From NCBI GenBank assembly GCA_029250665.1, contig JAQXEV010000038.1, positions 1 through 35,955 of the forward strand: 35,955 bases of DNA, given 5' to 3'. Below the pieces are notes generated by a model. It was given only the letters and a program-made list of their open reading frames with translations, was not told the origin of the DNA and ran no database searches. The first letter of the stretch is position 1. Each line of letters begins with the position of its first letter. Source of the stretch: Candidatus Thalassarchaeaceae archaeon. Its GTDB lineage: Archaea > Thermoplasmatota > Poseidoniia > Poseidoniales > Thalassarchaeaceae. Below, in pieces: positions 18,167 to 25,120 of this stretch. The translations under genes and the position numbers were made by a program.

Positions 18167-19120
18167 ATGGCGACCATCGATTTGGAGAGACATTTCCTCG
18201 ATGCGACTGAGGCTGCTGCGATTGCTGCTTCGGCTTGGATAGGCAAGGGAGATGGAAAGGCCGCTGACGGCGCGGCGGTAGAAGCGATGCGCGCTGTGTT
18301 CGATGGCGTGCCTTTCGATGGGCGCGTAGCAATTGGTGAAGGGGAGCGCGACGATGCACCTATGCTTTGGATCGGAGAACCACTAGGTTCGATGCAAGGT
18401 GATCCGAATGCCCCTTCAATTGACATTGCAGTTGACCCGCTCGAATGTACCAATCATGTCGCCAAGGATTTGCCGAATGCGATGGCGGTTCTTGCTGCAG
18501 CCCCGCGCGGGACTCTACTTCACGCTCCTGATTGTTACATGGACAAGATCTCTGGGCCAGCTGAGTTGGATGGTGTGATCAGCCTCGACGCATCAACCTC
18601 GTACAATGTCGAGGCTGCGGCCTCGGCCCTTGGAAAGAAAGAGTCTGAACTCAATATCGTTGTAATGGACCGGCCGAGACATGAGAAACTGATTTCTGAA
18701 CTCCGAGCACACGAGGTAAATGTCGTACTAATCGGCGACGGCGACGTTTCAGCTGCGCTCAATGCGGCCGACCCAAAATCAGAGATTGACATGCTAATGG
18801 GAATTGGCGCAGCGCCAGAAGGTGTCATCACAGCCACTGCGCTTCGCGGTCTCGGAGCCCCATTTGAGGGGCGCCTCGTGTTCAAGGATGAGGGCCATCG
18901 TGAGCGCGCAGAGAACATGATTGATGGCGATATTGAGCGACTCTGGGACAGAGATCAGCTCTGTGCTAGCGATGATGCTGTATTCATCGGCACTGGTGTT
19001 TGCCCAGGCCGAACCTTCGGCGTAGAGTCTCTTTCTGACGGACGTTACTCAGTTCAGTCCGAGGTTATCGACGTGGCGAGTGGAAGCCACAGATTTGTCG
19101 ACAATATCCGCTCAGCCTGA
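18167..19120 (+). CDS. Fructose-1,6-bisphosphatase class II (GlpX type)
   Basis: It dephosphorylates fructose-1,6-bisphosphate in gluconeogenesis. GlpX landmarks are GKGDGKAADGAAVEAMR, VAIGEGERDDAPML (E58/E60), the metal-binding DPLE (D90, E93) and GTLLHAPDCYMDKISGP. The canonical DPLEGT reads DPLECT here, with Cys at residue 94. Length is 317 aa. The next gene, 68 nt downstream, is the class I aldolase that makes the substrate. Most archaea use the bifunctional FBP aldolase/phosphatase for this step, so a bacterial GlpX points to acquisition by transfer. Confidence 0.9.
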   Translation: MATIDLERHFLDATEAAAIAASAWIGKGDGKAADGAAVEAMRAVFDGVPFDGRVAIGEGERDDAPMLWIGEPLGSMQGDPNAPSIDIAVDPLECTNHVAKDLPNAMAVLAAAPRGTLLHAPDCYMDKISGPAELDGVISLDASTSYNVEAAASALGKKESELNIVVMDRPRHEKLISELRAHEVNVVLIGDGDVSAALNAADPKSEIDMLMGIGAAPEGVITATALRGLGAPFEGRLVFKDEGHRERAENMIDGDIERLWDRDQLCASDDAVFIGTGVCPGRTFGVESLSDGRYSVQSEVIDVASGSHRFVDNIRSA

Positions 19121-19188
19121 ATCTGATTCCATAATTCACGGGCAAAGGATTCATCTTCCGAACCCACCACGTCGTGCCGAGGTTCGTC

Positions 19189-20199
19189 ATGGACACTGAA
19201 CTACTTGAGAGAACAGCGCGAGAACTTGTTGCACCAGGACGAGGAATCCTCGCCGCCGACGAGAGCAATGGAACGATGTCTAACCGCCTTGCAGCTGTCG
19301 GTGTCGAACCTTCTTCGGAGACTCGTCGAGCATACCGTTCCAACATCTTCGCAACCTCTGGCTACCAATCGGCGATTAGCGGTGTAATTCTCTTCGATGA
19401 GACAATTCGTCAGAAGATGAGCGATGGAACTCCTATTCCAGAATATCTTGCCAGTCGTGGCGTTCACCCCGGGATCAAAGTAGATACTGGAGCCAAGGAA
19501 TTAGCACACCACTCAGGCGAGAAAATCACAGAGGGGTTAGATGGTCTTCGCGAGCGCTGTGCTGAATACTTCGCCATGGGCGCTCGCTTTGCAAAGTGGC
19601 GCGCAGTCATTCGAATCGGAGAAGGGATGCCGAGCGATGCCAACCTCTCAACCAATGCTCATGCCCTCGCTCGCTACGCAGCGATCTGCCAAGAACAAGG
19701 TCTCGTTCCAATCATTGAGCCTGAGGTTTTGATGGATGGTGAGCACGATGCTCAGACTTGCTACGATGTTACTGCGCGAATTCTCGATGAGACATTCGCA
19801 GCTTGCGAAGTTCAGGGAGTACACATTCCAGGAGCTTTACTGAAGCCAAACATGATTCTACCAGGAAAGTCATGCTCTGACCAAGGTAACCGAGAACAGG
19901 CGGCTCAATTGACTGTGGATTGCCTGACTAATCACGTCCCACACAACTTGCCTGGAATCGTCTTCCTCTCTGGCGGTCAGTCCGACGAGGACGCGACCGC
20001 CCATCTCAATCTGATGAATGGCATGGATGTTGAACACCCATGGCAGTTGTCTTACTCATACGGTCGAGCCCTACTCGCTCACGCATTACAGACTTGGGCA
20101 AGCGGTTCCAATGAAGATAGCCAGGGTGCCTTCGCTCACCGCGCAGCGATGAATAGCCTAGCCCGAACTGGCGATTGGTCAGCCGAGCTTGAAGTCTGA
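19189..20199 (+). CDS. Class I fructose-bisphosphate aldolase (PF00274 type)
   Basis: It reversibly condenses DHAP and glyceraldehyde-3-phosphate through a Schiff base. The sequence follows the animal/plant-type class I aldolase throughout: ILAADESNGTMSNRL, ISGVILFDETI, GIKVDTGAKEL, KWRAVIRIG, PIIEPEVLMDGEHD, ALLKPNMILPGKS (Schiff-base Lys, residue 219) and FLSGGQSDEDA. ATG 19189 has GAGG six bases upstream and begins the family N-terminus; the track's GTG 19174 is only five codons earlier. The distinct DhnA-like archaeal aldolase is a different family, so this is probably an acquired gene working with the GlpX phosphatase just upstream. Confidence 0.95.
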   Translation: MDTELLERTARELVAPGRGILAADESNGTMSNRLAAVGVEPSSETRRAYRSNIFATSGYQSAISGVILFDETIRQKMSDGTPIPEYLASRGVHPGIKVDTGAKELAHHSGEKITEGLDGLRERCAEYFAMGARFAKWRAVIRIGEGMPSDANLSTNAHALARYAAICQEQGLVPIIEPEVLMDGEHDAQTCYDVTARILDETFAACEVQGVHIPGALLKPNMILPGKSCSDQGNREQAAQLTVDCLTNHVPHNLPGIVFLSGGQSDEDATAHLNLMNGMDVEHPWQLSYSYGRALLAHALQTWASGSNEDSQGAFAHRAAMNSLARTGDWSAELEV

Positions 20200-21053: not shown

Positions 21054-23672
21054 GTGTCGGATGACTTGCAAATCGGTGTTCCATCGGCTGATTACGCAAA
21101 TCTGAAACGGATTCGTAGTGCTCACCGGCGGCGCCTTCTCGATCGGCTCACAGATGGCGGCGCAACAGTGAGCACGCTCGCTCGCGATTCTGAATTACGA
21201 ATTCCGCACGCTTCAGCGGAGCTAAGGCGAATGAGAAACGACGGACTGGTCGCCAGTGATCAGGTAGCCGGGGCCCGAGGTGCTCGCCTGCATCTGACTC
21301 AATCTGGATGGGAGGCGATCCGTTCCGACGAACTAGCTCGAGCGATAGAGGCTCTACCACTACCCTCTCCTTCGCACAGATGTTGCTTACTCGCGCGCGA
21401 TGGAGCCAACTTACTGTTCGGACTTCTGGCTCCAATCGACTCTCCACTCATCCTGATTCCCGACCGCCCAGTTCGGGCAACAATTGGTGAAGGTGGCTCC
21501 ACCGGAAGAGAAGGGGTCTCTTGGACTTGGGCGGTCCTCAGAGAGAGATCTCCGCGTTGGTTCGACCTCAGGTCGCTTGAGATGCTCCCAGAACCCCCTT
21601 CCAGCCATGATCCTGAGAGCATCTCAGCCTATGTCGGAGAGAATCACACACTTGGCATAGTCAGAGCCCGATTAGTCGATGCAGATAGGCCGGTGGCACT
21701 AGCCCCTGGAATATGGTTTGAGGCTCCTAGCCACCGGCCTGACACTCCGCTGCCAGAAGCCAGCCATCACCGCGGCAGCTGGGTACTCGGCAACTGCCAC
21801 GAAAAATCACCAGAAATTCGTCCGAAGGATCCAGTCTGCGCAGTTATGGAGGAGAGGCTTCCACGCTCGATGCTGCTTCGGACAGCTAGAGCAAATGCCC
21901 TTGTCATTGCCGATCTCGGAGGCCTAGATTCAGGGGGTCACGAATATCCCATCTCATGTCTCGATGCATGGATTCGACGGGCCCACCCACGGCTCGTCCC
22001 CTCGGAACGCAAGCGTCGCCTCAACAGTCTCAGAGAACGCCTGACATCAACTAGGCGGGTGCGCACGGAGGAGTCGACTTGGAGGAGATTTCGAAGGGAT
22101 TGGGGCGAGTCAACTTTCTCTACGGAAGAGCGTGGGCTACGGATGCTAGACACCCGCGGACTTGGTGCGACTGCAGTAACTTCGCTAGTAGAATGGGCGG
22201 TTGCAGAAGAGGAGAGGCCGCCGTTAGTTCTGGAGATTTCTGAAGAACTTCCCGACGATGTCCTGACTGCCGTGATTTCACATCCATCACTCCGCCTCAC
22301 ACTCTCTCCTTCAGCCCGTTCTTCTCTGGCTATATTCGACGAACTGACCGTCGACCCTCTCAGACCTCTGCCGTGGTTACGACTGCGAACTCGAGGCGGG
22401 AGGGACCTACCTGTACGCCTCGTAGACCCAGTGCCGATGAGCCCAGAATTGGTTGTAGATAGCGAAGAGGCACCATCTCCTTGGGCTGTGCTCGGGTTGG
22501 AGGTTGGCGGTGCTGGTTCCACTTCAGATGATTCTTCGATGATTGGTTCTGCGATTGCTCAATTCCCAGAAGGGAATGAGGATTGGTCGAATATGATGGA
22601 GGCGAGCTATCCGGTTGCAGCTTGGATTGCTTCGCCACCACGGACGCGTTGGCATCGATGGCAGCGGTTGAGGGTGCGGCTGGATTCTGAGTGGATCGCT
22701 CTACTCGACCTTGATTTCATTCCACTCGAGCGTTTGGCTGAAATTGCTGACGAGGCTCCTGTACGTGTATTGGAGATGTTCGCTGAGAAATTGCGGGCGA
22801 TGCTTCGAGATGACCCCGAGATTGCTCTACGGACTAGGCCTGCGACCGATCCCTCGCAGGCCACCGAAGGAGCTTCGTGGGTTGCAGCTCAATTGCTGAG
22901 CAATGCCGCGTGGTTGCCCGATGACATGCAGGAGGACCTGATCCGATGGGCTCTCGAGGCTTGGTTGGTGCACCCTCCTGCAGATTCACTTGCTGCATTA
23001 CAGGCAGTAGATTGGATTCACGGGGGTGAGAGTGCTGATGCGATTAGATACGCTCCCGTTCTGCAAGGTGTATTGCGACGCTCTACTGGATTTGAGATGA
23101 ATCATGACCTCAAGATTTGGTCACTACTGGTCGAGCGGATACGCGATGGTAAGCAATTGGATATCGAGGGGGTCGAGGCAATCGTCGAGAATCTACCTCT
23201 TGATTGGTGGGCGCTCCTCGCGCCGGAACTACTGACAAATCTACTCGTAGAGGATGGCTCACTTGAATGGCTACTCGAGAATCCTATTCCATGGGCTGCG
23301 GCCGTATTACGACCGCAGGGAGAGGCGAGCAGTGCTCCGGGCTTACGAGATAGGGTGCATCCAGGGTGTTCGCCGGATATCCGTAACGCCCTCGCGCGAC
23401 GCTTACGTGCGCGTTACGAGAGAGGAACTCTCCCTGAGGCAACTGCCCCTCTACTCGACTTGCTTGAATCATTAGACCGAGCCATCGAAGGTGGCTCGCC
23501 AGCGACCGGCAGAACCCATCCACTCGTAGGATGGCTGGCCCAGCCGGTCGAGAAATGGCCACCACTCAGCACGGAGATGGCGATGAGCGGTAATCCACAC
23601 ATCAGCGAGAGGTTGATTCTACGCAGTTCCGGTTGGCATGAAGGCCTCTCACGAGATCACAGAACATTCTGA
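21054..23672 (+). CDS. Large protein of unknown function with N-terminal winged helix
   Basis: I do not recognise the bulk of this 872-aa protein. The first ~80 residues look like an ArsR/MarR-type winged helix: HRRRLLDRLTDGGATVSTLARDS, then ELRRMRNDGLVA and a wing ending in LHLTQSGWEAI. The middle (~90-480) is mixed alpha/beta with repeated Arg-rich helices and no nucleotide-binding motif. The C-terminal half (~500-860) is helical and rich in Trp, Leu and Glu (LDWWALLAPELLTNLL), like a helical repeat or scaffold. No membrane span is seen. GTG 21054 is supported by a strong Shine-Dalgarno sequence and a TATA-like box. A gene-free structured region follows. It could be a DNA-bound sensor or scaffold; nothing visible suggests an enzyme. 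Confidence 0.75.
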   Translation: MSDDLQIGVPSADYANLKRIRSAHRRRLLDRLTDGGATVSTLARDSELRIPHASAELRRMRNDGLVASDQVAGARGARLHLTQSGWEAIRSDELARAIEALPLPSPSHRCCLLARDGANLLFGLLAPIDSPLILIPDRPVRATIGEGGSTGREGVSWTWAVLRERSPRWFDLRSLEMLPEPPSSHDPESISAYVGENHTLGIVRARLVDADRPVALAPGIWFEAPSHRPDTPLPEASHHRGSWVLGNCHEKSPEIRPKDPVCAVMEERLPRSMLLRTARANALVIADLGGLDSGGHEYPISCLDAWIRRAHPRLVPSERKRRLNSLRERLTSTRRVRTEESTWRRFRRDWGESTFSTEERGLRMLDTRGLGATAVTSLVEWAVAEEERPPLVLEISEELPDDVLTAVISHPSLRLTLSPSARSSLAIFDELTVDPLRPLPWLRLRTRGGRDLPVRLVDPVPMSPELVVDSEEAPSPWAVLGLEVGGAGSTSDDSSMIGSAIAQFPEGNEDWSNMMEASYPVAAWIASPPRTRWHRWQRLRVRLDSEWIALLDLDFIPLERLAEIADEAPVRVLEMFAEKLRAMLRDDPEIALRTRPATDPSQATEGASWVAAQLLSNAAWLPDDMQEDLIRWALEAWLVHPPADSLAALQAVDWIHGGESADAIRYAPVLQGVLRRSTGFEMNHDLKIWSLLVERIRDGKQLDIEGVEAIVENLPLDWWALLAPELLTNLLVEDGSLEWLLENPIPWAAAVLRPQGEASSAPGLRDRVHPGCSPDIRNALARRLRARYERGTLPEATAPLLDLLESLDRAIEGGSPATGRTHPLVGWLAQPVEKWPPLSTEMAMSGNPHISERLILRSSGWHEGLSRDHRTF

Positions 23673-23740
23673 ACTGAACGCTCGTAATAACACCAATTTC
23701 CGACTTTTACCTCGCGTTTCACTTGCTCTCCTCCTATACG

Positions 23741-24068
23741 AGGGGTTCATGAAGGGTCCACCGGACGAATCGACGCCCGACCGGCAACACCGTGCCGACG
23801 AAAGCCCCAGCCGGAGTTAGTAGGATGAACCACGGTACCACGGAACGGGATTTGCCGTATGTCGAAGACCGGAATGAGCCACTGCTGTGCTATGACTTCC
23901 GGAGCAACACATACGGTCGGATTGTGATGGGTCCCCGGACGACTGCGACCGGAAGAGAGCGGAATGACTTACGGGACAACCACACGGTCCAACAGACGTC
24001 CCGGGGTGGGTCAGGTGCCTGAGCATTGCGATGAAGGTCACCGTTACGCCCCGGGGCACACCCCTTTT
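23741..24068 (+). ncRNA. Candidate structured noncoding RNA, family not identified
   Basis: Between two plus-strand genes lies a GC-rich stretch without a credible ORF but with many complementary segments. These are a closing AGGGGT/ACCCCT (23741-23746 with 24060-24065), CGGCA/TGCCG (23782-23797), and CCGTATGT/ACATACGG (23855-23862 with 23909-23916) enclosing CCGGAA/TTCCGG. A bulged CCCCGGACG/CGTCCCGGGG (23933-23941 with 23997-24006) and TCAGG-TG-CCTGA follow. It ends in CCCCTTTT, a T-rich archaeal-type terminator, which favours the plus strand. Length (~330 nt) is in the range of RNase P or SRP RNA. The conserved SRP helix-8 sequence and the RNase P core pairs were not found, so the class is open. 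Confidence 0.55.
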
Positions 24069-24106
24069 CCAAAGTCCTCAAGACTTCACACACTGGCTGG
24101 TTGACG

Positions 24107-25120
24107 ATGCACTCACTAGGATTGGTCGGCGGTACCTTCGACAGATTCCATTCTGGACATCGCGCACTCATCGAACGAGGATTATCTGAGTGCGTGCGTT
24201 TGGAGCTGTGGCTTACGAGCGATAATTTAGCGAATTCGAAGGATTCGCGGATCGAATCTTGGGCCGATCGCTCGTCGAAAATCCTCGCATCGCTTGGTGA
24301 TTCGGCTGATCGGGTCAGCCTACACGTGCTGGAGGATGAGGATGGACCTGCTCCTTGGCATGAGACTGCTACCGCAATTCTTTGCACTCCTGAGACTCTT
24401 CCTGGTTGTGAGAGAATCAATCAAGCTCGCGCCGCCAATTCCTTGGGTGCTCTCGAGATTATCGTGGCTGAGCACGTGACTGCCCATGATGGCGCTCCGA
24501 TTTCCAGTTCTCGCGTTCGAGCGGGTGAAATCGACTTGGATGGCGAGGCCTATCTTCCTGCTGATGCAGGCCAGGTTTCGATGATTATGACGCACGAGGT
24601 TGAAGCCAATCTAAAGGACCCGTTCGGTCAATTATTCGAGGGTCCTGAGGATGATCCGAGCGTTGCTATGCGGGCCGTGCTGGAGGAAATCTTCGGTAGT
24701 CCCGGCCCGGTTATCGCTGTGGGTGACGTCACAGTCAAGACTCTGCAAGATCTTGGTAGCCCCGCCGATATCGCTCTTATCGATGGTAAAACAAAGCGCG
24801 AAGAGTGGGAACACGCTTCGACCATCGACCATTCTCTGTACAACGATACGCGCACATGTGAGAATCCTGCAGGCCAACTTTCCGCTGGACTTTACCTCGC
24901 CTGCGCTGCTGCGATGCAAGCATGGCGTGAAGATGGTCGTAGTTGCCTCATCAACGTCGATGGGGAGGAGGATCTTGCTCCGCTCCTACTGCATCCGTTG
25001 GCTCCACTCGGAGCGGTTGTGCTCTACGGTCAACCCGGTCGGGGAGTCGTTCTTCGTTGGACTGGCGCGGATTCGAAGTCGCGCTGCCGTGATTTGCTTA
25101 CAGCAATGGTTCGAGATTGA
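24107..25120 (+). CDS. Bifunctional CoA synthase: phosphopantetheine adenylyltransferase fused to DUF359 dephospho-CoA kinase
   Basis: The N-terminal ~150 residues are a nucleotidyltransferase: GLVGGTFDRFHSGHRALIERG and the SSSRVRAGEIDLDGEAY closing motif, as in archaeal CoaD. From ~170 onward the sequence matches DUF359, the archaeal GTP-dependent dephospho-CoA kinase: GPVIAVGDVTVKTLQDLG, IALIDGKTKREEW, AGQLSAGLYLACAAAM and INVDGEEDLAPLLLHPLAPLG. The protein would catalyse the last two steps of CoA synthesis. ATG 24107 is preferred to the TTG two codons earlier. Both halves keep their motifs, so the fusion is likely active. Vertebrate CoA synthase fuses analogous activities, but its kinase domain belongs to an unrelated family. 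Confidence 0.9.
   Translation: MHSLGLVGGTFDRFHSGHRALIERGLSECVRLELWLTSDNLANSKDSRIESWADRSSKILASLGDSADRVSLHVLEDEDGPAPWHETATAILCTPETLPGCERINQARAANSLGALEIIVAEHVTAHDGAPISSSRVRAGEIDLDGEAYLPADAGQVSMIMTHEVEANLKDPFGQLFEGPEDDPSVAMRAVLEEIFGSPGPVIAVGDVTVKTLQDLGSPADIALIDGKTKREEWEHASTIDHSLYNDTRTCENPAGQLSAGLYLACAAAMQAWREDGRSCLINVDGEEDLAPLLLHPLAPLGAVVLYGQPGRGVVLRWTGADSKSRCRDLLTAMVRD

Follow-up and report, generated by a model that had tools for sequence, protein, structure and literature searches.

The closest described relatives of the RNA analysed here are the HgcG/Pab40/Pf7 RNAs of Thermococcales (Rfam RF00064). Pab40 is reported to guide P. abyssi U2588 in vitro, the equivalent of T. kodakarensis U2592 (PMC6138745; PMC4652768). 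It is also reported to guide Psi2016, which is position 1956 in H. marismortui and 1915 in E. coli, and stem II has been proposed for H. marismortui 2621, or E. coli 2586 (PMC2584109). The Haloferax HP1/HP2 and Afu-4 H/ACA sRNAs have been described as homologous to Pf7 stems II and III, with targets 2621 and 1956/1958 in H. marismortui numbering; in the Haloferax H/ACA sRNA stem I is missing and the spacer is long (PMC2584109), and this RNA is likened to the present RNA by description only. The H/ACA-like guides of Pyrobaculum depart from the canonical form in that the lower stem is missing (PMC4652768).

The present locus lies within a window of 35,955 nucleotides, this being the whole stretch of DNA that was analysed, from a Thalassarchaeaceae genome assembled into 126 contigs (1.48 Mb). 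A sequence-only reading of the window had marked a structured RNA candidate at this position, and homologues and covariation now identify it as a conserved structured RNA gene. Very likely, the product of the locus is an archaeal H/ACA guide RNA with several hairpins, an ortholog of HgcG/Pab40/Pf7 that is predicted to guide rRNA pseudouridylation. The gene is placed on the plus strand at 23774..24068, with ends that are inferred, and the mature RNA is probably ~295 bases long (~23774 to 24068).

No Rfam family, RF00064 included, is matched in the window at curated cutoffs, and tRNA genes are absent from it. When thresholds were relaxed in the Rfam search that the sequence-only reading had proposed, HgcG (RF00064) was the sole family to stand out, covering 23855-24056 with 29.7 bits (E 1.7e-6). 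The RNA had been missed by annotation because this falls below the gathering score of 77 bits, which is a score cutoff and not a biological feature. A bridge covariance model (A2), built solely from Thermoplasmatota HgcG hits outside the window's order, matches the window over 23845-24068 with 71.5 bits (E 4.7e-18; E-values are rough owing to a shortened calibration). The same model gives 49-87 bits for the other loci of the order and 35-47 bits for Thermococcus HgcG, and nothing comparable in three bacterial chance loci or in rRNA loci. By covariance-model similarity the locus thus belongs with HgcG/Pab40. In another family of the order, one genome shows HgcG matched over its full length (30.9 bits), likewise just 5' of a PPAT gene (see below).

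The size of the RNA had led to the suggestion of a divergent RNase P or SRP RNA, and size alone does suit either. The RNase P RNA of this genome is, however, on another contig (C90), where it scores 242 bits, and neither the RNase P (RF00373) nor the SRP models match the locus even at E 10. An RNase P RNA at the locus is refuted by the gene elsewhere in the same genome, and the probability of either family is negligible. In a different genome of the same genus (G065) there are two strong archaeal RNase P RNA matches (C24:5581-5872 and C2:12831-13122), reflecting a duplication or an assembly artefact. A coding function was also rejected, as neither Pfam nor NCBIfam has a family that matches the two minus-strand ORFs crossing the RNA; this was a check that the earlier reading had named. 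Its other suggestion, a new class of RNA, gives way to a known one: as judged from sequence, the RNA is a divergent, enlarged member of HgcG/Pab40/Pf7 (RF00064). The family and its mechanism were known already; what appears to be new is an added hairpin, the absence of ACA boxes from two hairpins and a central pocket that has seemingly been retargeted.

Folding of the single sequence gives -124.2 kcal/mol (z = -0.95), with 20/100 shuffles folding equally well; the folding energy alone is uninformative, and the comparative evidence is strong. Covariation was assessed in 30 non-redundant homologues against 500 shuffles and slid-partner controls. Every stem of the four hairpins described below is paired in 81-100% of cells, which is equalled by 0/500 shuffles. 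Sliding the stem partner reduces the pairing, and two-sided pair changes are present in each hairpin. Since the shuffle ignores relatedness, what counts most is the pairs changed on both sides, together with the slid-partner controls. On these alignments the RNA consists of four separate hairpins, arranged in the order IV, I, II, III, each having the H/ACA architecture of a lower stem, a two-strand pocket and an upper stem, with compensatory changes. The covariance check with homologues that the sequence-only reading had called for therefore supports a structured RNA.

Hairpin IV, the extra 5' module, spans 23776..23849 and consists of a lower stem (23776-23779/23846-23849) and an upper stem (23789-23794/23831-23836), which are 95% and 92% paired with changes on both sides, together with a K-turn. 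Its pocket strands are GGCAAC (23783-23788) and ACCACG (23837-23842). It is present in both families of the order that were examined, and was not seen 5' of hairpin I in Thermococcus or elsewhere in Thermoplasmatota. Hairpin I (23855..23916), the equivalent of Pab40.1/Pf7 stem I, has a lower stem at 23855-23862/23909-23916 and an upper stem at 23869-23874/23897-23902, enclosing the pocket strands CGAAGA (23863-23868) and AGCAAC (23903-23908). Two stems that had been proposed from the sequence, CCGTATGT/ACATACGG and CCGGAA/TTCCGG, are those of hairpin I; they are 81% and 94% paired with both-side changes in 5/8 and 5/6 pairs, giving 10/14 for the hairpin.

The central hairpin II occupies 23919..23994. 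Its lower stem (23919-23926/23983-23990) and upper stem (23934-23937/23972-23975) are 92% and 96% paired, with two-sided changes in 8/12 pairs, and it has a K-turn. The pocket strands are AUGGGUC (23927-23933) and ACAACCA (23976-23982), and an ACA box follows at 23992-23994. Hairpin III (23998..24060), equivalent to Pf7 stem III, has lower and upper stems at 23998-24006/24049-24057 and 24014-24017/24039-24042 that are 100% and 90% paired. Its pocket is formed by GGGUCA (24008-24013) and GUUAC (24043-24047), and its ACA box (24058-24060) is 15 nt from the upper stem, within the 14-16 nt expected of an H/ACA (ANA) box. Tandem GA/GA pairs of a K-turn are found in 30/30 homologues for both IV and II and in 28/30 for III; for hairpin I the 5' GA is present in 29/30, the 3' side being an alignment gap. 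All features of the RNA are on the plus strand.

The overall nested fold that had been drawn from the sequence is not supported, although every string quoted for it is present where it was placed, between two plus-strand genes. The closing stem AGGGGT/ACCCCT is paired in 65%, with 61% obtained from shuffling; the 5' arm falls within the promoter-like CGAGGGGTTCATGA, and the 3' arm within the ACA box and the T run at the end. Similarly, CCCCGGACG/CGTCCCGGGG is paired in 83% against 83% by shuffling, a value reached by 242/500 shuffles. It joins hairpin II to III, gives no sign of covariation and is incompatible with the lower stem of hairpin III, which is paired in 100%. The repeat of GACCGGAA is real, but the second copy belongs to inserted sequence within the hairpin II loop, which is missing from most relatives, and so carries little weight. 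The 3' end proposed at CCCCTTTT (24061..24068) fits; it is a probable T-run terminator, and a T-rich stretch follows the ACA in most relatives.

In the order of hairpins I-II-III, the K-turns, the pockets and the ACA boxes after II and III the RNA is like HgcG/Pab40/Pf7 of Thermococcales. Unlike these, it has hairpin IV and no ACA after hairpin I. An ACA box is present after II and III in 30/30 homologues and after I and IV in 0/30. As hairpin I keeps its ACA in Thermococcus and many other Thermoplasmatota, the box has been lost in the window's lineage. The HgcG-like RNAs of other Thermoplasmatota (loci L053-L072) share hairpins I-III, and many have the same pocket letters (UCGAAG/GCAA, GGGUC/ACAACC and GGGUCA/GUUA); they differ in having no hairpin IV, in that most have an ACA after I, and in that the PPAT motif is not nearby. 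Three of these RNAs (L061, L062 and L064) seemingly keep I and II, with a recognisable III absent.

Candidate targets were sought by testing every 23S and 16S uridine for two-strand pocket complementarity flanking UN. The rRNA of relatives was scanned, the window's own genome having no assembled 16S or 23S gene. The best 23S site for pocket III is GGGGGUAAC-UA-UGACCC, which is E. coli U1915 in helix 69; for pocket I it is GGCUUGC-UA-CUUCGAUG (U2496), and for pocket II GGGGUUGU-UC-GCCCAUU (U2555, in the A-loop). The best site for pocket IV, AGGU-UU-GUUGCU (U2606), is weak. Shuffled pockets reach the observed score in 10/300 (I), 5/300 (II), 30/300 (III) and 102/300 (IV) cases. The single-site scores are modest, with none compelling alone, and that of IV is not significant.

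Agreement with the Thermococcales sites is a stronger argument for the targets than these scores. The Thermococcus MAGs with HgcG had no 23S, and other Thermococcaceae were used instead. The same scan with Thermococcales HgcG and 23S places I at nucleotide 2592, III at 2020 and II at 2682, which are E. coli 2496, 1915 and 2586, and so returns the published or proposed Pf7/Pab40 sites for I, III (H. marismortui 1956) and II (H. marismortui 2621). Complementarity thus predicts that, in both groups, hairpin I targets the equivalent of P. abyssi U2588 (E. coli 2496) and hairpin III that of U2016 (E. coli 1915). Guide and target have also changed together: at two positions of hairpin I, from GCGAGG:CCUCGC in Thermococcales to UCGAAG:CUUCGA in the window's group, and at one position of hairpin III, from GGGUUA:UAACCC to GGGUCA:UGACCC.

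These results bear on whether all four hairpins act as guides. The 5' half of the RNA (IV and I) may have lost guiding and have become structural or L7Ae-binding, with only II and III guiding pseudouridylation. The missing ACA boxes and the weak target score of hairpin IV would agree with such a loss, but in both hairpins the pocket strands rank with the best-conserved positions of the whole RNA, and pocket I fits the nucleotide equivalent to that of Thermococcales with two compensatory changes. Furthermore, the H/ACA-like motifs of Pyrobaculum also depart from the canonical form (PMC4652768) and provide a precedent for non-canonical guides, the present RNA differing from them in that it keeps the lower stem and misses the ACA in I and IV. 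On balance we regard loss of guiding by the 5' half as rather unlikely.

Pocket II differs from its Thermococcales counterpart in fitting the A-loop U2555 rather than U2586. In lineages with the pocket GGGUC/ACAACC, which include the window, the U2555 duplex scores 28-39. In genera with AGGUC/ACUACC the fit to U2555 is poor (11) and that to 16S U555 is better (18-27); the 16S U555 scores are near the shuffle range, so that retargeting of pocket II is put forward as a hypothesis. Only tentatively do we propose an order-level guide RNA in which a fourth hairpin has been gained and is directed against a uridine that itself arose in this lineage, both ACA-less hairpins work, and, in several genera, pocket II has moved from U2555 to 16S U555 (E. 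coli numbering). The ACA-less modules and the apparent retargeting provide test cases for the requirements of H/ACA guides and for how guides change target.

The computation shows homology, four hairpins with K-turns, ACA boxes behind II and III, and complementarity between guide and target; that the RNA is transcribed, assembles into an RNP and brings about the modifications is inferred. On the model of the Pab40 system, which has been tested, the K-turn of each hairpin would bind L7Ae, and Cbf5-Nop10-Gar1 would bind the hairpins. The two pocket strands would pair with the rRNA sequences that flank the target uridine, presenting it for isomerisation, and Cbf5 (with Nop10, Gar1 and L7Ae) would turn it into pseudouridine. 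In 23S rRNA the predicted uridines are U1915 in helix 69 for III, and U2496 for I and the A-loop U2555 for II around the peptidyl transferase centre; U2606 for the extra 5' hairpin IV is more tentative. Protein partners are encoded in the window's genome, namely Nop10 (46.9 bits) and the Cbf5-type DKCLD domain (50.2 bits). For these uncultured archaea, the RNA gives a prediction of the ribosomal uridines that carry modifications.

DNA comparison finds homologues of the RNA in 91/99 genomes of the window's family (Thalassarchaeaceae), covering 11/11 genera sampled. Across Thermoplasmatota, HgcG matches occur in 21/41 genomes with scores from 92.7 to ~17 bits; one other Thermoplasmatota genome, at 92.7 bits, is above the gathering score. 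Use of RF00064 with strict filters over the whole order returned 1/146 genomes and missed the window itself, so this count is uninformative on absence. A search of openly licensed papers found no account of it from Marine Group II. An RNA that had escaped annotation, and that is conserved throughout an archaeal group which is probably the most abundant one in the surface ocean, is hereby assigned, and HgcG of Thermococcales is tied to a phylum-wide family.

The RNA sits between a plus-strand ORF (21054-23672) and a plus-strand CoA-biosynthesis gene (24101..25120) that Pfam and NCBIfam identify as phosphopantetheine adenylyltransferase (PPAT) fused to DUF359 (GTP-dependent dephospho-CoA kinase). 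An in-frame search within 260 nt found the PPAT motif GGTFD[RH][FL]H 40-136 nt downstream in 40/51 homologous loci; in the remaining 11/51 the strict motif was unmatched or the locus was not resolved. The PPAT motif is absent within about 1.5 kb of the HgcG hits elsewhere in Thermoplasmatota, and the linkage therefore looks order-specific.

Upstream, a promoter-like element CGAGGGGTTCATGA (23739..23752, plus strand) lies outside the RNA, ~25 nt 5' of its start, with an unconserved spacer between the two. It is probably a BRE/TATA-like promoter. A similar element, with a consensus of ~CCGNNGGGTTCATG, is found ~27-30 nt 5' of the RNase P RNA gene both in the same genome and in the majority of 12 others from the order. 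The ~CCGNNGGGTTCATG element, 25-30 nt 5' of this RNA and of RNase P RNA (loci L109, L112-L122), is thus a candidate small-RNA-gene promoter across the order. The pattern shows no genome-wide enrichment (5 hits against 3 for a control), and the case for a promoter rests on its fixed position before two kinds of RNA gene.

The constant place of the RNA just 5' of the PPAT gene across the order could suggest a cis-acting, riboswitch-like 5' leader of the PPAT/dephospho-CoA kinase mRNA. Such a leader is highly improbable: the RNA ends (ACA and T run) before the PPAT gene, its promoter-like element is common to RNase P RNA, and complementarity to rRNA accounts for its conserved letters. The lack of the PPAT motif near homologues outside the order argues in the same direction.

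Other genes of the window include Cdc6 among the neighbours. Cdc6 and the PPAT/DUF359 fusion, together with the way related genomes group, suggest Candidatus Poseidoniales (Marine Group II, phylum Thermoplasmatota). The ORF 5' of the RNA (872 aa) matches no Pfam family and has a weak, below-cutoff match to an ArsR-type HTH. At 18167-20199, a GlpX-type fructose-1,6-bisphosphatase adjoins a class-I fructose-bisphosphate aldolase.
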